The position numbers and the translations under genes were made by a program. The notes under the pieces are model-generated. The model did not search any database. It was not told the origin of the DNA and saw nothing but the letters and a program-made list of their open reading frames with translations. Positions 2,291 to 24,308 of a stretch of 26,207 nt of DNA are shown in pieces (the stretch's first letter is position 1; every line of letters begins with the position of its first letter). Source of the stretch: a virus; IMG/VR virus record IMGVR_UViG_3300029309_000302, positions 1 to 26,207 of that record; one strand, written 5' to 3'.

Positions 2291-3754
2291 ATGGCATTGA
2301 CTAACGTACTGAAGACGTACTACAATGATTCGCAGATGACTGACACCAATTCGTTGGTCAATGCGTTGTTGGAGAAGCCAGAAGAGCTCTCCCCAATTAT
2401 CACGCACCTTGCAGGTCGTGAAGAGAAAAAATTCCCATTGTCCTTTATGACAGAGGGTGTCGGTAACACTAAGTCTATCGACCGTTTTGAATATGAATAC
2501 AGAGTGAAGACTCATGAGGTGAACGTTCGCCCAGTGGTTTCTGCAAATGGAACTGGTGCTGGTGGATCAACCTTTACTATTGTTTTCCCAGACCGCTGGT
2601 TTGTGTTCCCATACACGCTCGTTTCTGAGAGTGGTGTTCTTGCACGTATTATGGAAGAGCCTCGTCAGGTAAGTGGTGGGTATGAGTACATAATGAAGCT
2701 TGTATCTCCGGATGCTGCAGCTCTTTCTGCTACAGATACTAGTGGAGATCTTTCTCCAGGTTCAATGTGGGGCATGCTGTTCGCAAACGTTGGAATCGAC
2801 TTCTCTCGCGGAAACGCTTCTAACTGGAGTGCACCCGGCTTGGTGAGATCTAAGATTGGTACTGTTCGTAAGTCTTACCAGTTCTCTGGTAACGCTAAGG
2901 ACTATGTTGCTGAGTTTGAGCTCCCATTGAAGGAAGGTTCTAGCACTCGTTTGTGGATGGACTATGAAGAGTATCGCCACATGTTGAAGTTTAAGGAAGA
3001 GTGTGAGATGTACTACTGGTACGGCCAGAAGACTCATGACTCTACTGGAAAGACTCAGATGGTGGACGAAAATGGACAGCCAGTTGTTTCTGGTCCTGGT
3101 CTCTTCGAGCAGATCATCAACAAAGACACGTACTCTACTTTGACTCAGAAGAAGATTGAGGACGTGATTGGTGACTTGTTCTACGGAATGACTGACGCTA
3201 CCGATAAGCAGGTGACATTGTTCACTGGTATTGGTGGTGCACGTGAGTTCGACAAGGCTCTTCGTAACTACTACGCTAATGGTATTAGCTCTACTAGTGT
3301 AAACACTAGTGCTAATAACTCTTACCTCAGAACTACTGAGTCTAAGTTTATCACAGGTAGCGGTCGTAGCCTTGGTATCACTGGTTACTTCACTTCGTAT
3401 GATCACGTCGATGGTCACACAGTGAACGTGGTCAAGGTTCCATTGTTCGATCATGGTCCTGTTGCTCAGGCTTCTCGTAAGCACCCTGACACTGGATTGC
3501 CACTCGAGTCGTACAGAATGACATTCGTCGATCAGTCTACGTATGACGGAGAGAACAACCTCCAGATGATCAATAAGAAGGGTCGTGAGATGTTGCGTTG
3601 GGCTGTTGCTGGTTCTGTTGTGCCTAAGGGCTTCACAGGATCTGACACTCGCGCAAGTGATATAGACGGTGCTTCTGTGCACATGTTGAAGACAGCTGGT
3701 ATCCTGCTCCGCAGATTCGATACTTCGCTTGATTTGCAGTGCACTGCATCGTAA
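2291..3754 (+). CDS. Major capsid protein (HK97-fold-like, crAss-like group)
   Basis: A 487-residue protein of the expected size for the capsid subunit of crAss-like and related phages. The N-terminal ~60 residues are helical. The C-terminal part has the look of this MCP group: LFTGIGGAREFDKALRNYYA, then SLGITGYFTSYDHVDGHTVN, VPLFDHGPVAQASRKHPDTG and ENNLQMINKKGREMLRWAV. Hundreds of copies would form the icosahedral shell. Codon use is distinct from most neighbours: CGT for Arg, TTG for Leu, AAG for Lys and GCT/GTT are favoured, where the 7639 tail gene uses AGA, CTA/TTA, GTA and ACA. This fits very high expression. A GC-rich hairpin follows the stop codon. The scaffold precedes it and connector genes follow. 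The HK97 fold is inferred from family resemblance, not from a visible motif. Confidence 0.82.
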   Translation: MALTNVLKTYYNDSQMTDTNSLVNALLEKPEELSPIITHLAGREEKKFPLSFMTEGVGNTKSIDRFEYEYRVKTHEVNVRPVVSANGTGAGGSTFTIVFPDRWFVFPYTLVSESGVLARIMEEPRQVSGGYEYIMKLVSPDAAALSATDTSGDLSPGSMWGMLFANVGIDFSRGNASNWSAPGLVRSKIGTVRKSYQFSGNAKDYVAEFELPLKEGSSTRLWMDYEEYRHMLKFKEECEMYYWYGQKTHDSTGKTQMVDENGQPVVSGPGLFEQIINKDTYSTLTQKKIEDVIGDLFYGMTDATDKQVTLFTGIGGAREFDKALRNYYANGISSTSVNTSANNSYLRTTESKFITGSGRSLGITGYFTSYDHVDGHTVNVVKVPLFDHGPVAQASRKHPDTGLPLESYRMTFVDQSTYDGENNLQMINKKGREMLRWAVAGSVVPKGFTGSDTRASDIDGASVHMLKTAGILLRRFDTSLDLQCTAS

Positions 3755-7638: not shown

Positions 7639-10600
7639 ATGGCATATTCATCAAGTAAACCGACAGGAGCCAAGAGCCAAAAGAGTTCTAGTTTTAGTTC
7701 AAAAGGAACTAAGAAGAAGGTAAGTAAGGTATCAACGTCTGGAACTTCAACTACGGTTGGGACTACACAGCCTATACAGGAAGATGATAGTACACGTAGT
7801 AGTGGTGCTGTAAGAAACGTTACTGAGCCTAATTATTATGCTGCGAGACACTTCTATGTAACACCTGGAAGTACAAGAGATACAGGAAGTGCCCTAGCCC
7901 CTACTACGGTCCTATGTCCACTCAAAGTACACCTAGGGACACTTGGACCAATAGGTCAACCAGATGGAAGTATAGCTAGTAATAGCACAGGACAACTATG
8001 GACAGGGGGCCAGGGATTTGCTGAAGTAACAGGTGTAGTTCCTATTAAAATAATAAGAGCGCACGATGGGTTTACATATACGGGCAAAGACGTAGTTGAT
8101 AGAATAGATAAGGTAACTTACGACTACAAAAAAGGAGGTCATAAAGTAATAACAGTGCACTATGACACGGAGACTACTGGTGACACAGTCTTTGAAAACT
8201 ATCTTCACTCAGTTGCACTGCAGATATTCTTTAGTGATGGATCTAAAGTAGAGGTAACGCAGCCTATAGTAGCCGGTAACATAGGAGAGACTAAACCCAT
8301 AAAGGAGGATAACACGATTACGTTTTACAATAACGATGTAGGTAATATTGGGGGACTAGAGTGGGAGGATATAAACGGTGTCTTTGATGATGAGTTTAGC
8401 ATAATATCTGCAGGATCGTTCTTTTCAGGAAACTATGTATACGCTGATGACTCATTCAGTTTTCACAAACACTACTACTGGGGTACAGATCCTAAAGGGG
8501 ATAGAATAGGAACTGTATATAATCAGCAGGTCCTAGAGACTTACACTAACTCTACAAGCCGGTCAGGTTCACTAGATAGTCAGCAGACTGGAGTATGGGA
8601 CTGGGATGAAAGATACGCTATAGGATACGCCAGTAATAACTTTGCAACTAAAACAGGAGCCGATGGATTTGATTACTCCGCAGCCTTAAGCAGTGTAGGA
8701 TCACAATACTACACTTTGTCTAAGTATAATATTACTGGGGCAGTGTTAGGGAGTAACGCCCCACAATGGGGGGCGGTAAATAGTGTTGGTTATTGGAATG
8801 CAAGTGAGACTGCGGCTGCTCTTTCACAGGCCCCATCAAACAGATTTGCACCTGTAAATGCCTACTATAATGGTGGTAAAGGCACTACCATTAGACATGC
8901 TGGCATGTGTATAAGCGTCCTTGGTGATGGAATAGATATAGCTAATGTAATGGCCGGTGAACTTACTGGTAAGCACCGAAGGGGCACACAATTAGCTTTA
9001 GCATTAAGAGCTTTCTTAAAGGGTATGTACACAGACAGCGACTTTGGTGGAGGTCCTAACTATCTACAGGGTACAATTCTTGCCTGTGACGAGTTTAATG
9101 TAACATCTGAAATATTTAACAACGGGGAAACAGTTGATGCGTACTGCATATCACAAGAAAATACTCAAAACGTGACGGGAGGCGCGTCGGTTTTTACCGC
9201 TTCCAACGGAAATGACACTTTTGTAAATCTGTTAGTAGGAAATAGAAATTCAGCCTTTAACGCAATAGGAGTTGACTCTTTATCAAAGGCACAGTATGCA
9301 GTATTTGCCGCTACGATGGGAATGTCTTACAGTCCTGAAACGGATGAAATTAGTACGGAGCAAGATTATGCGTCAGCTTGTTTCATCACGAACGCTTCCT
9401 CCGAAGCTGGTAAAGGGTTCCTACTACCGTTCAACGTAAGAAACGGGAATAACGATACTGGTTTTAATACCAATTTTGGGGCAAACTTAGAACCACTGAC
9501 TAATTCACCAAATTATATAGGGAATGTTCGTATAATCATGAAGCCTTTCTTGTCACACGTAGAGTTTCCTGTGAGTGCAAGTGGTCAGTATAAAGCCTTG
9601 GTTAGAGACCCAGGTCAACAGGATGCAATTATTTCTGCAACATCTAGCGAAGCAGTGGAGTTTGCATCTGCTCAAGGGGTTCCTGACTTCATAGAGTCTA
9701 ATCTATACGAGAGTCCTATTATACAAGGTGCTGTAAATGCATTACCAACCTTGTTGAACCTAGGTAGTTTTGCAAACATAGCGTATACGTCTCCTACAAG
9801 CGTAGCAAACTGTGATCCTCTGAGTCTTTTACACGTTGACCCTAAGTTAGACGCTTTAGGATATCAGAGTCCAAACCAGACTGTACCTTATAGCTTAAGC
9901 ACTAGGCAACCTTGGGGTAGAGTCAATGGAGTTCCTAAAGAGCAACACTATATAGCTGGGGGCATAGACTATTTTAGTGATAACGCTAAGTATCGGATAA
10001 CTGTTTTCCCAAAAAGTACTTTAACTAACCCTAGTACAGCTGGGTCTCCACAGGGCCCAGAGGTAGAGTTTCTTATGAAACAGTTATACAATTCTGGTAT
10101 TAGACTACCTAATGTATTAACCTTTGAGGGTACAGATATAGGAATTAGCGAGTTTGGTGGTGGTATATTTCAATTAAGTGGCTTCGCTAATTATCAATTT
10201 AAGAGTGGTCTAACAGCAGAAGGTCAATCTCAAGAGAGTTCAAATACTTTAGGTAACACACTAGACATATATGACTTCACATATGTACCAGGTAAGAATC
10301 TTTTAGATAATGCTGGATTCCCTATAAATACTGATACTGTATCCCCAAATAGCGAGGTTACAGGTTCAGCACCAGAAGATTTAAACATCGTTACGTTCAT
10401 TCCTAATGGAGAATTTACGGATACTAGAGTCCTTTTGACATCAGAGGGTCCAGATCTTGATAGGCCATTTATTGACATAGATATAGAGGATTTAGCTGGA
10501 GAGAACTATAACTTGATTAATGATCAAGGTTTGCAGTTCAATACTGTAAGTAGACTGTCTCTTAACAAAAACTTAGGGCACATTGGTAGTGAGCCTACTG

Positions 10601-13600
10601 GTCAGGTATCTGAATCTCCATTTAGTTTAAACTTTGACTTCATAGTGTTTGGATTAACTGATTTTGAGATTGGTCCCCCTGTAGAGGAGATAGTAGGGTG
10701 CACAGATCCAGCAGCTAATAACTATGATGAAGAAGCCAATGTTGATAATGGTAACTGTATATACTGTAGTGAAAATGCTCCAGGAGATGTCGTAGATCCA
10801 CATGAGTTTATATCAGAAGGCATAGGAGGGGAGGTATTAGACGCTCCAACTGTAATAAGTAATAGTGACGCATACGGAGGTCTACAGGTGGTAAATACCG
10901 ATTGGTACGTGGGCAACCTTGGAAATGCTGTAAACTTTTCAAATCCATTACAAGGTGTAGCTGCGGATAATCCTAGTGGTACTTCACAATGGACTTCATT
11001 CCAAGCCGTTTTTAACGTAGAGGCTTCAGCCATCATCGGGGCAGCTCAGAATGGTGGATCAACAGTTAGCACTGAAGAGTGGTTAAACTACTGGACTACT
11101 TCCGTAGATGCAAGTTCTTTCAGTCTTCTTATATTTAACATAGACGCATTTGATTCAGATTCATTTGAATGGGCTAGTCAGTCAGGGGTAACAGCTTACA
11201 ATAGCTTACCAATAGTAGAGGGAGCCACAGCAGTTACAGTATTAGAAAACCATGGTACCGCCGTAAACCCTAAGTTTGGTACGCAGGAGGGTGATGTAGG
11301 CAACGTTAGTCTAGGGCTAGAAGCAGGTAAACACTATGCAGCTATACTAAGAATAGAAATTAAAGAGTGTAATCAAGACTATTTTATGGCTTTCAACTTC
11401 TGGGTTTTGTACTGTGACTGTGAAGACAACACTGCACTAAACTTCGCAGGTAATGATTGGTCATATCCTTGGAGTGATGAAAACTCTTACCCTGCAGGAT
11501 ATAGTAATAGTGCCTTCTCATTCTGTACTAGTGGACAGTACAGTAGCAGAACATGGCTAAGATCTAAGAGAAGTAGTGAGACGGACGGTCTATGTCGATA
11601 CCCAGAGCCATATGTAGACTGTAACGAGTTTATAGATTTCTGTATAACATCGTCAACCTTTGAGTGTGAGCTTACTGGTAACATAGTTGATGGATTCACC
11701 AACATAGGAAGTGGTAGTGTATACGTAAATGTATTTGGGGTGTATACAGGATCGGACATAATAGGCCAAGAATACGCTTTGGTAGTTAACGGTCAACTGT
11801 TTCAGTTTGTACTGCAACTGATTGAGGTAGGTACAAATGAAGTAATTCAAGAGGTGGCAGTAACAAATATAGATGACTATGCTGCACTAGGTGCTCCAAA
11901 TCCACAGAACGTAAATGGTGTAAACATAGCGTTTAACAATGTATCACAAGGACAGTACAATGTAGTCCTTAACCAGATAGGTGAACTATTCCCGGGTCAA
12001 GACCCAGAGGCCGGTCCATGTCTGGGACTATCACCTAATGGTACAATAGGCACAGTAAACGTAGGGGAGGGTGAAAACTGTGAAGAAGTGGTCGGAGGAT
12101 GTTGTGATCCTACAGCAATTAACTATGTAGAAGGCTGTACTGATGAAGTAAACGGCATACCATTTACCGTATATGATGATACATGTGAGTATTTTGACTG
12201 CAGCAATGTATTTCAGAGCGTAAGAATAAATGGCTTTTCAGTCACCAACTCATTAGCAGAATGTGCCACCCAAGAGGTAGACACAGACGGAGATGGAATT
12301 CTTGATACTACAGAAAACTTCTTAGGGGACACAAGTAGTGGGGGAGTCACATTTACAGTCTTTGACCCTGATGAGCCTACACCATTTAACATAGCAGTAA
12401 TTGCACTAGTTAATGGTAATGAGAGTGACGCTCTGGAAACTTTGCTATCATTTTATGATGCGAATGCTGAACAAATAACAAGTAATAATACAGCTAACGC
12501 AATACCTATAACTCAAGGTAGTACTGTTGTAGGAGGGTATCTCCCAACAAATGTAGTTACAGTCCCGCAAGGTATGTTTTCTGCAACAGGCATGTATGCA
12601 GGCAACTTCTTAGCATTTGCACTACCACATACCATAGACCCAGCTTTCACCCTTACAATATGTGAGGAGCAACAATTAGAATTTGCCAATGACTTTGTTA
12701 GATTTAATGTGCTGCTTGACACTTCATTTATTACGGATTGCAACGAGCCTTGTAATGAGCAAGTGAATCCTGAGGATTGTGATGACTACGTAGGAGGGTG
12801 CACAGACGTTTCAGCTACTAACTTTAATGAAAATGCTAATTATGATGATGGAACATGTGAATACGGGGGTACAGAGACATGTATAACTAACCCAAGTCTG
12901 CCAGAATGTGAGGAGTGTGAAGACGAACAGGGGGTGGGTCTTAGAAACTGCGATGAAACCTTTGGTAACGGGGAGGGATGTGGCGACCCACAAGCATGTA
13001 ATTACAATCCTGATGCCTTGATACCTGTTCCCGCACTATGCGAATACTGCTGTGATGGTGATGAAAACTGTGTAGAAAACGAAGATGAGGACGATTGTGA
13101 AGATGAAGATGGTAATGTAGATCCTAACTGTACAGATCCTACATGTCCAGATCCTACTAACCCACAATGTGATGAGGTTGTAACTAACCCCTGTCCTACT
13201 GAAGCAGAATGTCCACCACCCCCAATCCCTGACTGTATAGCACTAGGAAACTGTGATGATGGGGGACCTGGAACTGGAGACCCTTCAGTAGACATAGAGG
13301 ATGAGGTAGTAACTATAGAGGTGTCTTGTGATCCTATGTTCAACAACCAAGATTTTGAGACTTGGAGAACAGAAGCTATGACCTGCTCTGCAAATGAGGG
13401 CAGTAAGATGTTATTCAAGCTCAGAGCTGGTGTGAAAGATCACAATAAAGACGATTTGGTTAAACTTACTCTGATTAACTATCTGTTTAACCAGGGTGTA
13501 GATTTACCATGCTTGTTTAGCTGTGACGAGTATGACAATAAAACACAGAACACTAGGTATAGAGATGTAGATTGTGCAAACAAGTGGAGAACAAACGGGT

Positions 13601-13965
13601 CTCAAAGATGGACACCCAAGAGCACGTTTAATCAAGGAGATACAGTAAGGATACTCAGAAACGTCAGAGGTAAGACAGTAGCATCCTACTTTATAGCTAA
13701 AAAAAATGTACCAGCACAACAGATAAGACCAGACCAAAGAGGTGTAGATAACGAGTACTGGGTAAGATGTATAAATGTCAGAGGACAGAAGAGCACCACA
13801 CCAAATGGAGTAACATATCTAAGAACTCTATATGAGTTTATGCGCAAGTTCTGTGAAAACTGCAGTATAGCAACCTTGAGTTCAGGAACAGCTGAAAACG
13901 AAACCAAGCCCCCATCTATGGATACAGGGCTCAGGGACAACGATGACTTTGAAATAACATTCTAA
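7639..13965 (+). CDS. Giant tail / host-contact protein with GCTD-type Cys repeats
   Basis: A 2,108-residue protein, the largest in the window. Residues 1-60 are Ser/Lys/Thr-rich and probably disordered. A beta-rich body follows to ~1010 (SFHKHYYWGTDPKGDRIGTV; LQGTILACDEFNVTSE; YKALVRDPGQQDAIISATSS). From 1020 it changes character: Cys repeats of the form GC-D-A-NY...DG-C begin near 1020, 1486, 1720 and 1780, with a degenerate unit near 1262, separated by beta domains. DTDGDGILD (1548-1556) fits a thrombospondin-3/EF-hand-like calcium loop. Residues ~1805-1870 are a Cys/Asp/Glu/Pro-rich linker, and ~1895-2108 form a mixed C-terminal domain. Size, modularity and the fibre gene just after it suggest a tail or receptor-contact protein. 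The repeats are typical of exported Bacteroidota proteins. No enzymatic motif was recognised. Confidence 0.68.
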   Translation: MAYSSSKPTGAKSQKSSSFSSKGTKKKVSKVSTSGTSTTVGTTQPIQEDDSTRSSGAVRNVTEPNYYAARHFYVTPGSTRDTGSALAPTTVLCPLKVHLGTLGPIGQPDGSIASNSTGQLWTGGQGFAEVTGVVPIKIIRAHDGFTYTGKDVVDRIDKVTYDYKKGGHKVITVHYDTETTGDTVFENYLHSVALQIFFSDGSKVEVTQPIVAGNIGETKPIKEDNTITFYNNDVGNIGGLEWEDINGVFDDEFSIISAGSFFSGNYVYADDSFSFHKHYYWGTDPKGDRIGTVYNQQVLETYTNSTSRSGSLDSQQTGVWDWDERYAIGYASNNFATKTGADGFDYSAALSSVGSQYYTLSKYNITGAVLGSNAPQWGAVNSVGYWNASETAAALSQAPSNRFAPVNAYYNGGKGTTIRHAGMCISVLGDGIDIANVMAGELTGKHRRGTQLALALRAFLKGMYTDSDFGGGPNYLQGTILACDEFNVTSEIFNNGETVDAYCISQENTQNVTGGASVFTASNGNDTFVNLLVGNRNSAFNAIGVDSLSKAQYAVFAATMGMSYSPETDEISTEQDYASACFITNASSEAGKGFLLPFNVRNGNNDTGFNTNFGANLEPLTNSPNYIGNVRIIMKPFLSHVEFPVSASGQYKALVRDPGQQDAIISATSSEAVEFASAQGVPDFIESNLYESPIIQGAVNALPTLLNLGSFANIAYTSPTSVANCDPLSLLHVDPKLDALGYQSPNQTVPYSLSTRQPWGRVNGVPKEQHYIAGGIDYFSDNAKYRITVFPKSTLTNPSTAGSPQGPEVEFLMKQLYNSGIRLPNVLTFEGTDIGISEFGGGIFQLSGFANYQFKSGLTAEGQSQESSNTLGNTLDIYDFTYVPGKNLLDNAGFPINTDTVSPNSEVTGSAPEDLNIVTFIPNGEFTDTRVLLTSEGPDLDRPFIDIDIEDLAGENYNLINDQGLQFNTVSRLSLNKNLGHIGSEPTGQVSESPFSLNFDFIVFGLTDFEIGPPVEEIVGCTDPAANNYDEEANVDNGNCIYCSENAPGDVVDPHEFISEGIGGEVLDAPTVISNSDAYGGLQVVNTDWYVGNLGNAVNFSNPLQGVAADNPSGTSQWTSFQAVFNVEASAIIGAAQNGGSTVSTEEWLNYWTTSVDASSFSLLIFNIDAFDSDSFEWASQSGVTAYNSLPIVEGATAVTVLENHGTAVNPKFGTQEGDVGNVSLGLEAGKHYAAILRIEIKECNQDYFMAFNFWVLYCDCEDNTALNFAGNDWSYPWSDENSYPAGYSNSAFSFCTSGQYSSRTWLRSKRSSETDGLCRYPEPYVDCNEFIDFCITSSTFECELTGNIVDGFTNIGSGSVYVNVFGVYTGSDIIGQEYALVVNGQLFQFVLQLIEVGTNEVIQEVAVTNIDDYAALGAPNPQNVNGVNIAFNNVSQGQYNVVLNQIGELFPGQDPEAGPCLGLSPNGTIGTVNVGEGENCEEVVGGCCDPTAINYVEGCTDEVNGIPFTVYDDTCEYFDCSNVFQSVRINGFSVTNSLAECATQEVDTDGDGILDTTENFLGDTSSGGVTFTVFDPDEPTPFNIAVIALVNGNESDALETLLSFYDANAEQITSNNTANAIPITQGSTVVGGYLPTNVVTVPQGMFSATGMYAGNFLAFALPHTIDPAFTLTICEEQQLEFANDFVRFNVLLDTSFITDCNEPCNEQVNPEDCDDYVGGCTDVSATNFNENANYDDGTCEYGGTETCITNPSLPECEECEDEQGVGLRNCDETFGNGEGCGDPQACNYNPDALIPVPALCEYCCDGDENCVENEDEDDCEDEDGNVDPNCTDPTCPDPTNPQCDEVVTNPCPTEAECPPPPIPDCIALGNCDDGGPGTGDPSVDIEDEVVTIEVSCDPMFNNQDFETWRTEAMTCSANEGSKMLFKLRAGVKDHNKDDLVKLTLINYLFNQGVDLPCLFSCDEYDNKTQNTRYRDVDCANKWRTNGSQRWTPKSTFNQGDTVRILRNVRGKTVASYFIAKKNVPAQQIRPDQRGVDNEYWVRCINVRGQKSTTPNGVTYLRTLYEFMRKFCENCSIATLSSGTAENETKPPSMDTGLRDNDDFEITF
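10696..13047 (+). repeat. Dispersed GCxD protein repeats in the giant tail protein
   Basis: Four clear units start at 10696, 12094, 12796 and 12976. Their shared form is Gly-Cys-x-Asp, then Ala-x-Asn-Tyr/Phe-(Asn/Asp), then acidic residues and a closing Cys, about 24 residues in all. Example starts are GCTDPAANNYDEEANVDNGN and GCTDVSATNFNENANYDDGT. The units differ at DNA level, so they are old or selected rather than recent duplications. Confidence 0.8.
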
Positions 13966-16373: not shown

Positions 16374-16805
16374 ATGGGTAAGAAGATAAAAGATACTGGC
16401 CTAGGTAAGTGGTTAAAGTCTAAAGCCCCAAATGTACTTGAAGTAGTTGGGGATCTTCTCCCAGATCAGGGAGGCCTCGGTATAGTTAAGAATCTCATAG
16501 ATAAAGATCCTGATGTAGACACTGCTGAAGGAACTGCTGCTGTAGATGCAGAGATAAAGTTCCAAGAGAATGTTACATCAAGATGGCAAGCGGATATGGG
16601 GAGCGACGTAAAGCTGGCTAAGCTAATACGGCCAGTGACGCTTATTTCCCTCATGGCTATGTTTATGGTAACTATGTTCATAGACAGCATGGACAATGTG
16701 CCATTTAATGTAAAAGACTCCTATGTTGATTTACTCCAAATCCTAATGCTCACTGCATTTGGTGCTTACTTCGCTGGTAGGACGATAGAAAAAGCCAAGA
16801 AGTAA
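16374..16805 (+). CDS. Holin, 3TM-type
   Basis: A 143-residue protein. A cytoplasmic amphipathic N-terminal half (KWLKSKAPNVLEVVGDLLPD) is followed by QENVTSRWQADMGSDVKLAK and then two clear membrane helices at about 85-105 (LIRPVTLISLMAMFMVTMFI) and 118-136 (YVDLLQILMLTAFGAYFAGR), ending in the basic tail TIEKAKK. The RWQADM...LAKLIRP run before the first helix and the FGAYFAGR-type second helix are typical of the family named for the gene-transfer-agent 3TM holin. Holins permeabilise the inner membrane at a set time so that endolysin or its activators can act. No endolysin gene is visible in this window. It sits in the late operon among virion genes. Confidence 0.78.
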   Translation: MGKKIKDTGLGKWLKSKAPNVLEVVGDLLPDQGGLGIVKNLIDKDPDVDTAEGTAAVDAEIKFQENVTSRWQADMGSDVKLAKLIRPVTLISLMAMFMVTMFIDSMDNVPFNVKDSYVDLLQILMLTAFGAYFAGRTIEKAKK

Positions 16806-17962: not shown

Positions 17963-18239
17963 AGACGACATAGAAGACGATTACGATTTCTCTACCTCAA
18001 TAGAAGACGAGATAGAGATACTTGATGAGGCATACAGAAATGCATTTGCTGTAGCCACAGGCAAGATGACTGTAGTTGAGCTTTTGTCAAGAAGCTCTGA
18101 TATGATCTTCTTGCCTTTTGACCCTAGTGATCCCTCTGCACTTAAGGTTATCATAGACGATATGATAAAGTACTTTGAAGAAAACGAAGAATATGAAAAA
18201 TGTGCTAAGCTAGTTAGCATAAAAGGGCTAGATCAATGA
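17952..18239 (+). CDS. Small acidic protein, unknown function
   Basis: A 95-residue acidic protein. I chose the ATG at 17952, which overlaps the phosphoesterase stop by 11 bases; the longer open frame upstream (to 17748) lies wholly inside the phosphoesterase and its extra residues do not look like a protein start. The N-terminus is Asp/Glu-dense (LFEDDIEDDYDF). The rest is helical, with GKMTVVELLSRSSDMIFLPF and MIKYFEENEEYEKCAKLVSI. Similar short proteins with FLPFDP and EEYEKCAKL-type ends occur in other Bacteroidota phages, as I recall, without a function. It overlaps the next gene by 4 bases (ATGA), so the three genes are probably translated together. Confidence 0.6.
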   Translation: MLFEDDIEDDYDFSTSIEDEIEILDEAYRNAFAVATGKMTVVELLSRSSDMIFLPFDPSDPSALKVIIDDMIKYFEENEEYEKCAKLVSIKGLDQ

Positions 18240-18898
18240 CTTTAGATGAGATTGCATACAATATCCTAAACCTAGTTAGGGCTGGTAGATCTAGCAATGA
18301 TGATATTATATCATTGGATCAGATCAAGTTCAACGTACAGCACTACCGTGCTATGTTTATACGTAGAGACTACAACAGGAATGGGTTTGTATCCAATACA
18401 CTAGAACAGGACTTAGGGTGCTTGGACCTAATTAAGGTTGACGCTTCTAAGTGTTGCAATCTCCCTATAGACTGTCCAGTATATAGAACTAAAAGAAAGC
18501 TCCCTAGAACAGTTAGATTTAACTTTAGGGATGCTTTTACATTTATAGGTAAGCCTAATGGAACAGGCACTATTCCTAGAGTAGAGGCCTATGAAATAGA
18601 GTACATACCATATGATAGGTATACATCAGGACAGACTAAGTTCTATGTCATCGATGACTTCATATACGTATACAATCCAAATGGACTTGAAGCTATAAAC
18701 GTAAGAGGGGTCTTTGAAGACCCTGAAACCGTAGCAGAGTTTGCTACATGCAACCAAGGGGAATGCTATGACGATCAGTCCCCTTACCCACTCCCTATGG
18801 ACATGGTGAGCTTGATAACTAATGGAATAGCTTCAGGAGAGCTCGTGCTCATGTCACAGGGCATAAATGATACTTCTAACGATAGACAACAAAACTAA
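18236..18898 (+). CDS. Connector/ring-type structural protein, crAss-like group
   Basis: A 220-residue protein beginning TLDEIAYNILNLVRAGRSSN and continuing ISLDQIKFNVQHYRAMFIRR, a helical start seen in structural proteins of crAss-like and other Bacteroidota phages. The middle has paired cysteines (CCNLPIDCP) and a beta-rich part with FTFIGKPNGTGTIPRVEAYE and KFYVIDDFIYVYNPNGLEAI. The C-terminal part has LPMDMVSLITNGIASGELVL. The end, LITNGI plus a helical tail, parallels the EIVEMAVKSIL ending of the 4691 ring protein, which suggests a related ring fold. It probably joins portal and tail. No enzymatic motif is present. Confidence 0.68.
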   Translation: MTLDEIAYNILNLVRAGRSSNDDIISLDQIKFNVQHYRAMFIRRDYNRNGFVSNTLEQDLGCLDLIKVDASKCCNLPIDCPVYRTKRKLPRTVRFNFRDAFTFIGKPNGTGTIPRVEAYEIEYIPYDRYTSGQTKFYVIDDFIYVYNPNGLEAINVRGVFEDPETVAEFATCNQGECYDDQSPYPLPMDMVSLITNGIASGELVLMSQGINDTSNDRQQN

Positions 18899-18900
18899 TT

Positions 18901-19242
18901 ATGGGATTAAATACAACAAGAGAAAGACTGCTAGATAAGCAGGTAAAAGCATCACAAGCTAGTAAAGCAGCCAATGAGTCAGTATCATCCACAAACAAGC
19001 TGTCACTTGGCGATAACGGCTGTGTGATGATCAATGGCAACGCTGCTCAAAGTGTAAGTGCAGGAACGTACTTCGCAGTACAGTTCTTGAAAGCATGTAC
19101 TCCTACAGCTCTTACCATAGGTAGTAGCACAACTGTTACTGGACAAGAGATACCTGCAGGTACTATACTCTACGGAGATATCACAGCCATCACTGGTGAC
19201 AGTGGGGCATTGTACGTACTATATAAAGGTGATCCTACGTAA
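18901..19242 (+). CDS. Small virion-associated protein, unknown function
   Basis: A 113-residue protein. The first ~35 residues are helical and Lys/Ser/Ala-rich (RERLLDKQVKASQASKAANE) and look like a docking segment. Residues ~36-113 are beta-like (SVSAGTYFAVQFLKACTPTA, then QEIPAGTILYGDITAITGDS). An A-G-T-Y-F / A-G-T-I-L pattern of this type is common in small capsid- or tail-associated proteins of marine phages. Its stop codon shares a base with the next start (TAATG), linking it to the LamG-like gene. No signal peptide, membrane segment or enzyme motif is seen. Confidence 0.55.
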   Translation: MGLNTTRERLLDKQVKASQASKAANESVSSTNKLSLGDNGCVMINGNAAQSVSAGTYFAVQFLKACTPTALTIGSSTTVTGQEIPAGTILYGDITAITGDSGALYVLYKGDPT

Positions 19243-20015
19243 TGTCTTTAGGACTGGGAACAAATATCACAAAAGTACCATACCCGTATCCTACGGGAGG
19301 CGCTGTCGAGACACAGAACTACTCTGTGTACTTAGACGGAGCTAGTGATCGTATACAAGGACCCAACCTGGCAAGTACTTGGTTGCAGGTCTTTGATGCA
19401 AATGCTGAGTTTAGTCTACACTTTGCTGTAAAGCTAGACGCTCTAAACTCAACTATAAGCTTTACTGGTACGAGCACTACCTTCTTCTGGATACAGGTAA
19501 ATTCAGATGGCGACTTAAATATTTCAGCCACAATTAGCGGCGGCCTTGTGGGTAATGTGACATTTGACACTAGTATGTCTACCGGCACGTGGTATGATAT
19601 AGTCATTACAGCAACTAATGATACAACTAGATCCTTTATTTGTTACGTAAACGGTAGTGCGGTAAGCATATTGACCACAAATGCTGCATTTAACGCTTCA
19701 GCAGATATAGCTGCTATATCAGGTAAGTTCACCGTGGGTACCTTCCTGAACGTAATAGACTATGACCTTAGAATAGATAGGCTTGCTTCTTGGAGCACTG
19801 TTCTTACTGCTGCTGAAGTAGCAGAGATCTACAACAACTACCCAGATCTTACAGCGGACTCAGGAAACTATGCTGAATCTGCCAGACTGGTAACATACTA
19901 CAAGATAGAAGAAGGATCAGGCACTACCATGTCAGATAGCTCTGGTAATAGTCACAGTGACCTCACTGTTGTCAACGCAACTGGAAACTTCTGGAGTACA
20001 GATACTAGAATATAA
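19242..20015 (+). CDS. LamG/concanavalin-like jelly-roll virion protein
   Basis: A 257-residue protein. After a short N-terminal arm (SLGLGTNITKVPYPYPTGGA), residues ~26-195 show the LamG_3-type pattern: NYSVYLDGASDRI, FSLHFAVKLD, TGTWYDIVITATNDTTRSFI, CYVNGSAV and a YDLRIDRLASWSTVLTAAEV...IYNNYPD segment. The C-terminal ~50 residues (LVTYYKIEEGSGTTMSDSSG) are the recurrent companion motif of these domains. LamG-like jelly rolls often bind glycans; on a phage this would serve surface attachment. It is coupled to both neighbours by TAATG overlaps. Cytoplasmic synthesis without a signal peptide supports a virion part. The ligand cannot be inferred. Confidence 0.75.
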   Translation: MSLGLGTNITKVPYPYPTGGAVETQNYSVYLDGASDRIQGPNLASTWLQVFDANAEFSLHFAVKLDALNSTISFTGTSTTFFWIQVNSDGDLNISATISGGLVGNVTFDTSMSTGTWYDIVITATNDTTRSFICYVNGSAVSILTTNAAFNASADIAAISGKFTVGTFLNVIDYDLRIDRLASWSTVLTAAEVAEIYNNYPDLTADSGNYAESARLVTYYKIEEGSGTTMSDSSGNSHSDLTVVNATGNFWSTDTRI

Positions 20016-20271: not shown

Positions 20272-20544
20272 ATGGCAACACCCGCATGGCAAAGAAAAGC
20301 AGGCAAGAGTAAGTCAGGAGGACTTAATGCTAAAGGTAGAGCCTCATATAGAAAAGCTAACCCTGGTAGTAAACTTGCTGCACCCGTAACAGAATCAAGC
20401 CCTAAGGGTAAGAGAGCAGGACGCAGAAAATCGTTCTGTGCTCGTATGTGTGGAATGAAATCCCGCAGAACCGGAGCTAAGGGTAAAAGAGATCCAAACT
20501 CACGTATTAACAAAGCACTTAGAAAGTGGAGATGCAGATGCTAA
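20272..20544 (+). CDS. Small basic PAWQRK-type phage protein (DUF6321-like)
   Basis: A 90-residue, strongly basic protein. It opens with ATPAWQRKAGKSKSGGLNAK and GRASYRKANPGSKLAAPVTE, and continues with GRRKSFCARMCGMKSRRTGA and DPNSRINKALRKWRCRC. PAWQRK-GLNAKGR(A)SY followed by a RRKSFCARM block is a conserved phage signature, which I believe corresponds to DUF6321. Function is unknown; charge and size suit nucleic-acid binding or packaging with DNA. Four cysteines, including a Cys-Arg-Cys end, might bind metal. Its stop codon shares a base with the ATG of the exported T9SS-type protein. Confidence 0.8.
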   Translation: MATPAWQRKAGKSKSGGLNAKGRASYRKANPGSKLAAPVTESSPKGKRAGRRKSFCARMCGMKSRRTGAKGKRDPNSRINKALRKWRCRC

Positions 20545-22604
20545 TGAAAAACTTACTTACTATATTATTCATAGGGCTGTCTAATATTATAGCAGCACAA
20601 CCAAGCTGGGTTAACCTAGAGTTTCAGACCGACGCATACGGAGGTGAAAGCACTTGGGAGATATACATGGTTGGGTCTGACAGCACTTTTGTATCAGGAG
20701 GACCCTACCCCGACTCTTCTTATACAGAACAGCTAATACCTCTACCATCAGGTGAATACAACCTTGTAGTCAGCGATGCTTTCGGGGATGGTATTTGCTG
20801 TCAGTTCGGTGAGGGATGGTTTAAACTAAACAATGACTGTGGTCTTGACCTGTCAGTATTTGACTTCAGCACAGAGCAGATAACAGTTCCTTTTGTCTTA
20901 GAGCCGTGTGCTCTTCCTATTCCTGGATGTACAGACGATGCATCTAATAACTACAATCCGTGGGCCACTGTAGATAACGGCACATGTAATGTAAGCGAAT
21001 GCCCAGAAGGTCAGGCCTTTGTATCTATGGAGTTGACCTTAGATAACTGGCCCAACGAAACTGGGTTTACCCTTGTTGACCTAGCTGTTGGTCAGTTCTA
21101 TGAGCAGGTGCTACCAGGAGGATTTAACTTTGGGGATCAGCTAGCCACATACACCTACGACTTCTGCGTAGCACTTGGCTTTGAACTTATTCTGACAGAC
21201 ACATACGGAGACGGACTCAACGGGTCGGCAAGTGGTGGTCAAGACGGAGGCGTGGTCATCACTGCATGCGACGAGGAGGTTGTCTGGGAGCTAGAAGATT
21301 TGGCCTACTCAGACAATAACGGAAACGTTCACTATTCGGGAGCTGTGTTTGTAGAGCCCTGTGCCCCTGACAGCGTAATAGTCGGATGTATGGACGACGA
21401 TTACGTTGACTACAACCCAGAGGCTACAGCTCAAGACACATGTGAGGTTCTACATACTTGGGGATGTATGAACCCAGAAGCATTTAACTACGACTCAACT
21501 GCTACTATCTCAGACCTCAACAGTCCGTGCCTTACAACAATAAGAATCGGTGACGCAGCAGGTGACGGTTGGGGTAATTCACATATAGGTGTTAAGCAAG
21601 GTGACTTGCAGTGGATCTTTACCATGGGTCCTGGTCAGTTTTCTCAGTCATGGGACTTGGTGTTAGACTCTGATGAAAAGGTAGATATATACTACTTTGA
21701 GATAGGGGGACCGCAACAGCCTCCACAAGAGACTGAGTTTCAGACACTGCACAACTCTGTTCTTGTCACAAACGAGCTAGGTGACACACTCATGGTTGAA
21801 GGTCTTAATCCATTCTTCGACAACGGACAGGGTGCTCTGCAACCGTTCAAGAACCCAGAGTGGAATGTATACAGCTTCATGCCATACTGCGGCACTAGCT
21901 GTGTCCCGTTTACGTATGGATGCACTGATGAAACTGCACAGAACTATGATTCTGAAGTCAACACAGAAGACGGTAGCTGCTACTATAACGCTGGGTGTAC
22001 ACAAGCTGGATACCTAGAATACTACACACAAGGATATGATGCAGACTACGACGACGGATCATGTGAGACGCTGGCGGTCTTTGGATGCACTAATGCAGAA
22101 GCACTTAATTATGAGCCTGAAGCCAATGTAGACAATAACAGTTGCATAGCTGTAGTAGAGGGCTGCATGGACCCCGACGCATACAACTACAACGAGGAGG
22201 CTAATACATCAACACAGTGTCTGTACGATGCAGGATGTGTAACAGGTCCAGGGGAACCATACTGGGCCAACGATTACTGCTACACGTGGGTTATCGAAGT
22301 TGATCCCTACTGCTGTGAAGTTGGATGGGACGCAACTTGCATAGAACTATATGACTACTGTGGTAATCAAACGTCTAGTGTAGATATGACTGTTCAGTCT
22401 TTGCTTCACTTCTTCCCTAATCCTACAAATGGAGATATTCGTGTACAAGCTCCTATAGGCACAATTATTACAGTTATAGACGCCTCAGGTAGAAAGGTTA
22501 TAGAAACACAAGACACTAGAATACACCTACCATCCGCAGGTGTATATGTAATTATGGCTAACTACAAGGGCCGAATCAAAAAAGAAACAGTAGTAAGGCA
22601 ATGA
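20544..22604 (+). CDS. Exported repeat protein with T9SS C-terminal sorting domain
   Basis: A 686-residue protein. I chose ATG 20544, which overlaps the preceding stop (TAATG) and starts the signal peptide KNLLTILFIGLSNIIAAQ; in-frame ATGs at 20526 and 20532 lie inside the previous gene. DxxGDG-type beta domains centre on 78 (DAFGDGICC), 219 (DTYGDGLNG) and 337 (DAAGDGWGN). GCxD repeats start at 128, 281, 307, 459, 484, 514 and 540. A Cys-rich module spans 579-606 (EVDPYCCEVGWDATC). The end (612-686) has the type A T9SS sorting pattern: FFPNPTNGDIRV with PNP at 625, TVIDASGRKV, then LPSAGVYVIM and a basic KETVVRQ end. In Bacteroidota such proteins cross the inner membrane by Sec and the outer membrane by the type IX system, and are anchored on the surface or released. 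In a phage late operon this implies display on the infected host cell. Confidence 0.88.
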   Translation: MKNLLTILFIGLSNIIAAQPSWVNLEFQTDAYGGESTWEIYMVGSDSTFVSGGPYPDSSYTEQLIPLPSGEYNLVVSDAFGDGICCQFGEGWFKLNNDCGLDLSVFDFSTEQITVPFVLEPCALPIPGCTDDASNNYNPWATVDNGTCNVSECPEGQAFVSMELTLDNWPNETGFTLVDLAVGQFYEQVLPGGFNFGDQLATYTYDFCVALGFELILTDTYGDGLNGSASGGQDGGVVITACDEEVVWELEDLAYSDNNGNVHYSGAVFVEPCAPDSVIVGCMDDDYVDYNPEATAQDTCEVLHTWGCMNPEAFNYDSTATISDLNSPCLTTIRIGDAAGDGWGNSHIGVKQGDLQWIFTMGPGQFSQSWDLVLDSDEKVDIYYFEIGGPQQPPQETEFQTLHNSVLVTNELGDTLMVEGLNPFFDNGQGALQPFKNPEWNVYSFMPYCGTSCVPFTYGCTDETAQNYDSEVNTEDGSCYYNAGCTQAGYLEYYTQGYDADYDDGSCETLAVFGCTNAEALNYEPEANVDNNSCIAVVEGCMDPDAYNYNEEANTSTQCLYDAGCVTGPGEPYWANDYCYTWVIEVDPYCCEVGWDATCIELYDYCGNQTSSVDMTVQSLLHFFPNPTNGDIRVQAPIGTIITVIDASGRKVIETQDTRIHLPSAGVYVIMANYKGRIKKETVVRQ
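20925..22220 (+). repeat. Seven GCxD protein repeats in the T9SS-type exported protein
   Basis: Units start at 20925, 21384, 21462, 21918, 21993, 22083 and 22161. Their form is GC(T/M)(D/N), then A-x-NY-(N/D), then an Asp-Gly/Asn run and Cys, for example GCTDETAQNYDSEVNTEDGS. The unit near 21993 is degenerate. The form is the same as in the giant tail protein encoded about 8 kb upstream. Confidence 0.85.
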
Positions 22605-23647
22605 AATACTTAGTAACCATACTGCTGATAATCATACCAACTATCAGCTATGCGCAAAGCACATTCTATAAAGAAGTTCTTAGAAGAGCAACATTCTACG
22701 GAGCGGTTAATGGGGGCAATTCGATATCTGATGATGACACATATTCTGTCTCTACCGGACAACTTGCAACCGGAGTTATCGAAACACCATTTGACTACAG
22801 TCTTACGCTTGGCGTCCGCAAGATTGCGCGTTTTGGCTATGAAAACAGAGCTAACATATTCTATGATGGCACTGAAAAGACGTACGGGGATGCAGCCACT
22901 ATTGGACGATACTCAGGATTTGAGTTCCTCGCAGAAGCAGACTGGAGAAGACAACAAGGTAAAAACTTCCTAGACCAAGATTACTTCGTTAGATACGTAG
23001 CAGACTGGTGGGTAGCAAAAGCTGAGTGGCTGCAGGACGGGTTTGCAGACATACAATACTTTGAAGGATCGCAAAGACTACGCCTACGCATAGGTGATAA
23101 GCTATCTATAAATGCAGGTATAGTGCAAAGGATATCAGAGCCCTATGGCTATGACCCACTACAGGAATGGTTGTTAGAGAACAATGAGATACACTACACT
23201 GCACTAGCCATACAAGAAGGCTACACTGTGAACTTTGACGAAGGAGAGTTCCTATCTCCAAACGGTGCAGTCATAGCCAATAGCTCTGATGTATGGAGAG
23301 AGGTTGTTATACCTCAAGTGTTGGATGACTATGTAGCACGTAAAAGATCTCAACTTTCTAGACAATGGATACACTCAGCCGTAATTGGGTTTGACTTCTA
23401 TCATTATAGTAAAGACTTCTGGTTTCATTCATGGGGTAATGTTATGCCTTACCACATAAACAATGGAGATGAATACTCATACCACAACTTTGTAAGTAGC
23501 TCACAATGGCTAGACATTGGGGCTGGACTTGTATTTGGTACTAAAATATCTAAAAGCTTAGGAGTATTCACAGAAGGTAAATACAACAGATACTGGAACA
23601 GAGAATGGCATGACTTCTCTATCGGATTAAACTACATACTACTGTAA
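22601..23647 (+). CDS. Probable outer-membrane beta-barrel protein
   Basis: A 348-residue protein with a clear signal peptide (KYLVTILLIIIPTISYAQ, cleavage probably after AYA or AYAQ). The mature part is rich in alternating aromatic/polar strands (YSLTLGVRKIARFGYENRAN; YSGFEFLAEADWRRQQGKNF; QRLRLRIGDKLSINAGIVQR) and ends WHDFSIGLNYILL, a membrane-strand-like finish expected of an outer-membrane barrel. No plug, TonB box or enzyme motif is seen. It overlaps the T9SS-type gene by 4 bases (ATGA), so the two are probably co-translated. T9SS cargo is sometimes encoded beside PorP/SprF outer-membrane proteins; this gene's sequence does not let me claim that family. A receptor-like barrel or lysis-related protein is also possible. 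Confidence 0.7.
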   Translation: MKYLVTILLIIIPTISYAQSTFYKEVLRRATFYGAVNGGNSISDDDTYSVSTGQLATGVIETPFDYSLTLGVRKIARFGYENRANIFYDGTEKTYGDAATIGRYSGFEFLAEADWRRQQGKNFLDQDYFVRYVADWWVAKAEWLQDGFADIQYFEGSQRLRLRIGDKLSINAGIVQRISEPYGYDPLQEWLLENNEIHYTALAIQEGYTVNFDEGEFLSPNGAVIANSSDVWREVVIPQVLDDYVARKRSQLSRQWIHSAVIGFDFYHYSKDFWFHSWGNVMPYHINNGDEYSYHNFVSSSQWLDIGAGLVFGTKISKSLGVFTEGKYNRYWNREWHDFSIGLNYILL

Positions 23648-23931
23648 TGGCAAAACAAATTGGAGAGGACACTAAAGTAACGCTAGACCTAAAGACTATA
23701 GGTATGGCAGCAGCGGGTATTGGTACTATCGTAGCTATGTGGTTTGCACTGCAGGCTGATATTGCTGAAGCAAAAGAACTACCTGAACCTGCTGCCCCTG
23801 AAATAACACGAATGGAGTTTGACATGAAAGACCAACTAGTCCGTCAAACTATCATGACTACGCAAGAAGATGTCACTGAAATCAAAGAAGACATGAAGCG
23901 TATAGAAGAAAAAATCGATAAACTAAAATAA
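23647..23931 (+). CDS. Small membrane-anchored coiled-coil protein
   Basis: A 94-residue protein. A polar start (AKQIGEDTKVTLDLKTIG) is followed by one membrane helix at ~19-36 (MAAAGIGTIVAMWFALQA), a Pro/Glu-rich linker, and a C-terminal coiled coil at ~55-94 ending EDMKRIEEKIDKLK. Similar proteins with the MAKQIGEDTKVTLDLKTIG opening occur in Bacteroidota phage late regions as I remember them; function is not established. One helix plus a long coiled coil recalls inner-membrane spanins (Rz type), and together with the exported proteins around it, a lysis or envelope-bridging role is possible. It is joined to the barrel gene by TAATG. Confidence 0.62.
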   Translation: MAKQIGEDTKVTLDLKTIGMAAAGIGTIVAMWFALQADIAEAKELPEPAAPEITRMEFDMKDQLVRQTIMTTQEDVTEIKEDMKRIEEKIDKLK

Positions 23932-23939
23932 AATGGAAA

Positions 23940-24308
23940 ATGAAAATTGTTCTATCAGTTGCATTATCATTTCTACTATTTTCAACGGCGGTACTTGTAT
24001 TGCCGGGGGAGAGTGCACCAGAAATACCTGATACGGGTATTTGTGTAGTAGAATTTAATGCTCAATTTAACGCCTCAAACTCAGTTCCTTGGGTTGAAGA
24101 TATAGATGATTGTACTAGTGCCAGGATAGATATAGCAACTAGTCCAGAACTACAAAGAAATCATAAGATAGTTGTTGTGCCCACTATTGTAGTATTTAAC
24201 GAAGGAGAAGAAGAGGTAAGATTTCAAGCGAACATTATGATGCAGCTAGAAGCGTCACAAAAGGATGTGCAGGAAGCTGTAGACGAAATCATCATGGACT
24301 CGTTTTAA
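23940..24308 (+). CDS. Exported thioredoxin-fold protein lacking CxxC
   Basis: A 122-residue protein with an N-terminal signal peptide or anchor (KIVLSVALSFLLFSTAVLVL). The rest follows the thioredoxin pattern: CVVEFNAQFNASN (35-47) aligns with the strand and active site VVDFWAEWCGPC, putting N44-A-S-N47 exactly where C-G-P-C belongs. Then comes a helix, RIDIATSPELQRNHKIVVVP with the cis-Pro loop P81-T, and VVFNEGEEEVRF. Without both cysteines it cannot be a normal thiol oxidoreductase. C35 and C58 remain and could pair. It may be a binding or chaperone-like thioredoxin domain in the periplasm. It follows the small membrane protein by 8 bases. I preferred ATG 23940 over 23933 because only this frame gives the signal peptide. 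Confidence 0.68.
   Translation: MKIVLSVALSFLLFSTAVLVLPGESAPEIPDTGICVVEFNAQFNASNSVPWVEDIDDCTSARIDIATSPELQRNHKIVVVPTIVVFNEGEEEVRFQANIMMQLEASQKDVQEAVDEIIMDSF

Follow-up and report, generated by a model that had tools for sequence, protein, structure and literature searches.

A probable phage-encoded cargo of the type IX secretion system and its four-gene cassette in a crAss-like phage

An open reading frame in a linear virus record of 26,207 bases, the whole of which was analysed and is referred to here as the window, can be regarded with good confidence as encoding a genuine cargo of the type IX secretion system (T9SS), carried by a phage within a four-gene cassette, on the strength of its sequence family and modelled fold. 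A sequence-only reading of the window had proposed a phage-encoded T9SS cargo, and this proposal receives strong support from the sequence family, the fold, family-wide conservation, and the occurrence of the gene in more than 100 viral contigs with phage neighbours. The computed evidence comprises the phage context, the sequence and fold of the C-terminal sorting domain (CTD), a conserved export signal, obligate linkage to neighbouring genes, and purifying selection. The sequence-only reading held up as regards a phage cargo and the absence of a contig mix-up, but overlooked the obligate cassette, prior publication, and the accessory status of the gene.

Results

The portal and capsid proteins of the window match phage families (the portal being phrog_6547), with the major capsid protein sharing 28–29% identity with those of named crAss phages over 94–99% of its length, and by its capsid, portal, and ring proteins the window phage is assigned to the crAss-like phages (Table 1). 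Its own terminase lies outside the window; the terminase of a cassette-bearing phage resembles those of cultured Flavobacterium and Cellulophaga phages, with Tenacibaculum and Maribacter phages likewise among the matches. As these are terminases of cultured flavobacterial phages, a flavobacterial host is likely, and the host would be a marine member of the Bacteroidota, probably of the Flavobacteriia. A Flavobacteriales metagenome-assembled genome (MAG), whose bin includes a cassette contig, contains 44 CTD matches.

Upstream of the cargo, positions 19242–20015 encode a laminin-G-like protein of concanavalin fold, possibly a virion binding protein. The DUF6321 protein stands alone near the cassette in the window and its relatives, and in the PHROG families corresponds to the C-terminus of much longer proteins. 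A groEL-like phage gene is found in one cassette-bearing phage (L175:12291–13859, minus strand), and is annotated in related phages too.

Table 1. Positions of the features discussed, numbered from the first base of the window
Feature	Position	Strand	Evidence or remark
Major capsid protein	2291..3754	+	Phage structural context
Holin-like protein, two membrane segments	16374..16805	+	Inferred; relatives within two genes of the cassette in many loci
crAss-type ring protein 2	18236..18898	+	PF25702, E 1.7e-40
DUF6321 protein, basic	20272..20544	+	Neighbour whose position varies between loci; context only
T9SS type A cargo, 686 aa (predicted)	20544..22604	+	Sequence, family, and fold evidence
Predicted signal peptide, Gln at predicted +1 (Bacteroidetes Q-rule)	20544..20600	+	Q19 kept in 50/50 relatives
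T9SS type A sorting domain, residues 620–686, seven predicted strands	22401..22601	+	Model match, fold, conservation
Beta-barrel of 348 aa predicted for the outer membrane, with signal peptide and invariant Q19	22601..23647	+	12 predicted long strands
94-aa product of the third cassette gene, with a single membrane segment at the N-terminus and a coiled coil at the C-terminus	23647..23931	+	Topology read from sequence
122-aa exported thioredoxin-like protein without CxxC; fourth cassette gene	23940..24308	+	Pfam 17.7 bits, under cut-off

The cargo reading frame was found where the sequence-only reading had placed it (20544–22604), as were the small overlaps with its neighbours, comprising one base (TAATG) shared with 20272–20544 and four bases (ATGA) shared with 22601–23647, with a further one-base overlap between 22601–23647 and 23647–23931. 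The protein is laid out as a signal peptide (residues 1–18), three β-rich domains, Cys-rich GC[TM]D..A.NY repeats, and a CTD (residues ~620–686), with the reported PNP (residues 625–627), VIDASGRKV, GVYVIM, and basic end all present. Nearly all complete relatives of the cargo begin with a basic residue followed by a hydrophobic stretch, and the hydrophobic N-terminus, together with the invariance of Q19, bears out the Sec signal peptide that had been proposed, as judged from sequence. Q19 is also invariant in the barrel proteins of the cassette (28/28), with both cargo and barrel appearing to obey the Q-rule of Bacteroidetes signal peptides (PMC5837995).

Whilst the match of the window protein to the sorting-domain model TIGR04183 (residues 624–685, E 8.6e-5, 22.4 bits) lies just below the cut-off of 23, and that to PF18962 scores 17.6 bits against a cut-off of 27 (21.1 bits, E 9.2e-6, in a whole-record search), TIGR04183 is matched by 48/50 aligned cargo relatives, with a best E of 1.8e-12, and by all 43 of the relative-bearing records, 40 of them above the cut-off. 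The sub-threshold status of the window protein alone is therefore outweighed by the matches of its family. No match of the window cargo to the T9SS type B model (TIGR04131/PF13585) was found. Across 40 aligned CTDs, the columns conserved in at least 90% are P625, N626, P627, G649, T655, G666, and Y668, with P625, P627, G649, G666, and Y668 invariant in 50 relatives and N626 present in 39/40; the diagnostic T9SS residues PNP, G649, G666, and Y668 alone are constant, the remainder of the CTD changing fast.

An AlphaFold model of the cargo, built from the window and related sequences and of low global confidence (pTM 0.30), places seven strands in residues 622–685 at a pLDDT of ~77–86. Fold comparison of the modelled CTD gave T9SS CTDs as the best six of 942 aligned PDB chains, headed by the CTD of RgpB (Z of 10.0 over 64 aligned residues at 1.6 Å, and Z of 9.4), with RemZ and NucA (Z of 8.1), FspA (7.8), and PorZ (7.7) also matched. 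The T9SS CTD is described in PMC11285876 as an Ig-like 3+4 β-sandwich. With the family matching T9SS sorting models and the predicted fold being T9SS CTD-like, both in agreement with the sequence-only reading, a chance PNP-like end is ruled out by the family-wide TIGR04183 matches, the CTD fold, and the conserved columns.

Ig-like domains are frequent in phages, and the cargo could be read as part of the virion, its CTD-like end being an Ig-like module and not an export signal, with a large protein of the structural region (positions 7639–13965) sharing its Cys-rich repeats. This is very improbable given the Q-rule signal peptide in all relatives, the T9SS-specific residues, the specific fold match, and the other exported proteins that the cargo adjoins, the structural-region protein being without an evident signal peptide or CTD. 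The latter is a late protein of 2108 residues with GCTD..A.NY....D.G.C repeats like those of the cargo, and large open reading frames similar to it also occur in relatives without the cargo.

The cargo, a 12-stranded outer-membrane barrel, a membrane coiled-coil protein, and an exported thioredoxin-like protein form an inseparable set, with greedy gene picking recovering the complete cassette in 50/54 loci with room for it, and the remaining four proving complete once all open reading frames were scored. The cargo is present at 75 of the 78 barrel loci, the other three ending at a contig edge within or next to the cargo. The gene order is rearranged in the L025 group, in which the barrel comes first and the cargo last, so that descent from a single ancestral arrangement does not by itself account for the linkage.

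The barrel model shows 12 long strands (mean pLDDT 69, pTM 0.66), with fold matches to Tsx, KdgM, and NanC at Z values of 13.3–14.4. PorV and PorP are absent from these fold matches, an absence of no weight against PorV or PorP/SprF, and the sequence gave no NCBIfam match at an E of 1. A bacterial origin of the barrel gene was considered and rejected, with four MAG contigs matched in the genome collection, one over 41 residues only, and the matching contigs examined (L166 and L167) looking phage-like. The best fold matches are small-molecule channels, Tsx being a nucleoside channel, and one N-terminal domain of the cargo resembles a carbohydrate-binding module fold at a low Z (6.7), both of which would suit a nutrient capture and uptake device in which a surface protein and an outer-membrane channel, following a SusCD-like logic, feed phage replication. 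However, a shared 12-stranded barrel fold is a poor guide to substrate, and sequence searches assigned the barrel to no family, leaving a role in uptake unlikely.

The 94-residue protein has weak PHROG matches only, the best being to a family of unknown function, and no lipoprotein partner for it was identified in the cassette. The L167 relative of the thioredoxin-like protein scores 26.7 bits, above the Pfam cut-off. No Pfam match was found for the holin-like protein encoded at 16374–16805. In L167 (MAG contig NZWA01000061.1), which reads as rich in nucleotide-metabolism genes, the cassette lies between a small membrane protein and a peptidoglycan-binding amidase.

The surroundings of the cassette bear on whether it is an accessory lysis module, in which the coiled-coil protein and its surface and outer-membrane partners would help to rupture the outer membrane when infection ends. 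In 19 loci a holin-like gene is found no more than two genes away from the cassette, in 11 an M15 peptidase gene lies at a distance of up to four genes, and in a few an amidase or DUF5675 gene adjoins it. The order in L167, running from the small membrane protein through cargo, barrel, coiled-coil, and thioredoxin-like genes to the amidase, is of the same kind, and the 94-residue protein, as read from its sequence, would be N-in and coiled-coil-out like an inner-membrane spanin. In contrast, a recognised lysis-type gene lies within five genes in only 35/85 loci, many of these loci being incomplete, and Amidase_2, found in only 4/48 records, is ruled out as a general neighbour. The neighbours of the cassette are late genes in general, and a T9SS-exported surface protein is no obvious membrane-breaking tool. 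Moreover, a survey finds that Bacteroidetes phages use unimolecular spanins (PMC12596118), a type to which the 94-residue protein does not belong. A function in lysis is a serious rival reading, though unlikely on balance.

Relatives of the cargo are encoded in at least 108 stretches in a scan of IMG/VR, and homologues thus extend to other phage contigs. The neighbours of the gene in the window are ordinary structural genes, and many independent contigs carry the same gene in a phage setting, which rules out a misassembly, and with it a host gene or contig mix-up, as the sequence-only reading had maintained. Neither the whole cargo nor one CTD gave a match in the phage collection, and a PDB sequence search with the cargo returned nothing useful.

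The Cys-rich repeat part (model columns 449–616) is matched in 41/148 Flavobacteriales genomes, whose only match to the N-terminal cargo body is on a phage-like contig of a single bin; the repeats thus appear common to phage cargo and host proteins, and the body looks phage-specific. Such widespread repeats would be in keeping with a host adhesion or aggregation protein that was acquired by the phage and alters the attachment of infected cells. However, the near-absence of the body from the same genomes argues against this, and so tight an association with three further phage genes indicates a function dedicated to the phage, making an adhesin of host origin unlikely.

The T9SS CTD occurs in only 3/22 capsid relatives of the window phage, which makes the cargo an accessory gene in its own lineage and rules out a lineage-core gene of the window phage group, and 25/28 cargo records are without the window-type capsid protein. 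Because the distributions of cargo and capsid disagree, the cassette is taken to move between phage lineages. Two sampled cassette records have a portal of phrog_6547, like the window, together with another capsid family (phrog_13704) and a terminase (phrog_6681) related to those of flavobacterial podophages. The view that the cassette is spread across wholly unrelated phages was softened, since these two records keep the window's portal family; contig L167 is the only carrier that looks more distant. No type A CTD was found in seven named phages tested, which include relatives cultured on flavobacteria, and the function of the cargo is therefore not required for infecting flavobacteria.

The cargo body is under purifying selection, with a dN/dS of ~0.02–0.12. 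Of the 58 pairs whose bodies share at least 85% identity, 16 have CTDs that fall below 60% while remaining type A throughout, compared with four pairs in which a body segment of CTD length is equally divergent. In the pair L043 and L061, a body of 92% identity (pN 0.05) contrasts with a CTD of 33% identity (pN 0.50), with the L061 tail resembling that of the L025 group. Tails that are divergent yet type A are as expected if functional export signals are swapped for one another, and the divergence of the CTD is explained in part by faster change and, in the extreme pairs, by tail replacement. In the L023 and L024 cargo, a CTD pS of 0.06 against a body pS of 0.50 suggests recent recombination of the tail.

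Additional T9SS cargo is found near the cassette. A type B cargo lies next to it in several phages (TIGR04131, 45.1 bits against 35; CHU_C, 60.5 against 27), and among the 45 virus records searched, 8 contigs encode one that scores above the cut-off. One such protein, exported according to the Q-rule, is encoded near the cassette at L006:13703–14611 (minus strand), with further ones in L007, L008, L047, L064, L073–L075, L077, and L079, where both cargo types are present. A second type A cargo of 411–521 residues, its N-terminus weakly CARDB-like, lies between cargo and barrel in L010, L013, L017, and L062.

Discussion

The idea of a phage T9SS cargo is not new, having been reported twice (PMC7468147, PMC6949934). 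In Cryophage, Bellas et al. 2020 (PMC7468147) described a phage-encoded T9SS type A cargo, proposed that the host system is hijacked, and termed this a unique occurrence. Cryophage resembles the window in encoding proteins with type A sorting domains, and its cargo, which varies between variants, consists of an endoglucanase, a GH39 protein, and a PA14 protein, all located in variable islands, whereas the window's cargo belongs to a single conserved family and to a four-gene cassette that is obligate. Unlike those islands, the cassette is distributed over crAss-like phages and others, some of which carry type B cargo. The passage of de Jonge et al. 2019 (PMC6949934) on crAss-like cluster 2 places T9SS sorting-domain proteins near head genes, and so resembles the window in reporting such proteins in putative crAss-like phages; the mention there is a passing one, tied to BACON domains, and that passage contains no cassette, fold, or conservation analysis.

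A member of the cargo family is also present in sequence databases as A0A218MM41 (uncultured virus), a “Secretion system C-terminal sorting domain-containing protein” with 53% identity over nearly the whole length, as a database annotation only. The window cargo shares a signal peptide, CTD fold, and motif with bacterial type A cargo (RgpB, NucA, RemZ, and FspA), but differs in being phage-encoded and in having a body that looks phage-specific. Phages of Porphyromonas gingivalis carry Q-rule signal peptides (PMC10367356), and their proteins, like those of the window, are adapted to host Sec export, with T9SS absent from the text of that paper. Neither the conserved cassette nor the exchange of tails nor a type B phage cargo was found in the open-licence papers searched, and all three appear to be new.

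From these features we infer secretion itself, its timing, and a role for the cargo. The cargo would be made late, together with the structural genes, exported by Sec, and cleaved before Q19, with its C-terminal sorting domain then recognised by the host T9SS, through a translocon of the SprA-PorV type, and the protein displayed at the cell surface, where such tails are normally cleaved off. The cargo would work with the 12-stranded outer-membrane barrel, the membrane-anchored periplasmic coiled-coil protein, and the exported thioredoxin-fold protein.

Tentatively, such late remodelling of the surface may mask or replace receptors, with the effect that competing phages are kept out and released progeny are not lost by adsorbing again to the infected cell or its debris. 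Surface masking and superinfection exclusion are ranked first because two of the four products would target the outer membrane or surface, with the masking role drawn by analogy, since the cargo body showed no recognisable enzymatic or receptor-like domain. Lom of lambda, the Lc porin of PA-2, and Cor of phi80 and N15 are phage-encoded outer-membrane proteins that act in superinfection exclusion. The cassette proteins would resemble these in bringing a phage product into the envelope of the infected cell, in the window paired with a T9SS cargo.

Somewhat speculatively, the cassette may be a mobile four-gene module for which the host T9SS provides an essential export step, serving an undescribed surface and outer-membrane machine that acts in superinfection exclusion or in opening the outer membrane at lysis, and whose exchangeable tails track the secretion system of the host. 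If this is true, tailed phages of marine Bacteroidota would systematically reshape infected cells via a Bacteroidota-specific secretion route, and would do so with a conserved module, as opposed to an isolated captured gene. The cassette offers a compact, testable system that bears on how Bacteroidota phages keep out competitors or break through the outer membrane, a matter on which little is known.
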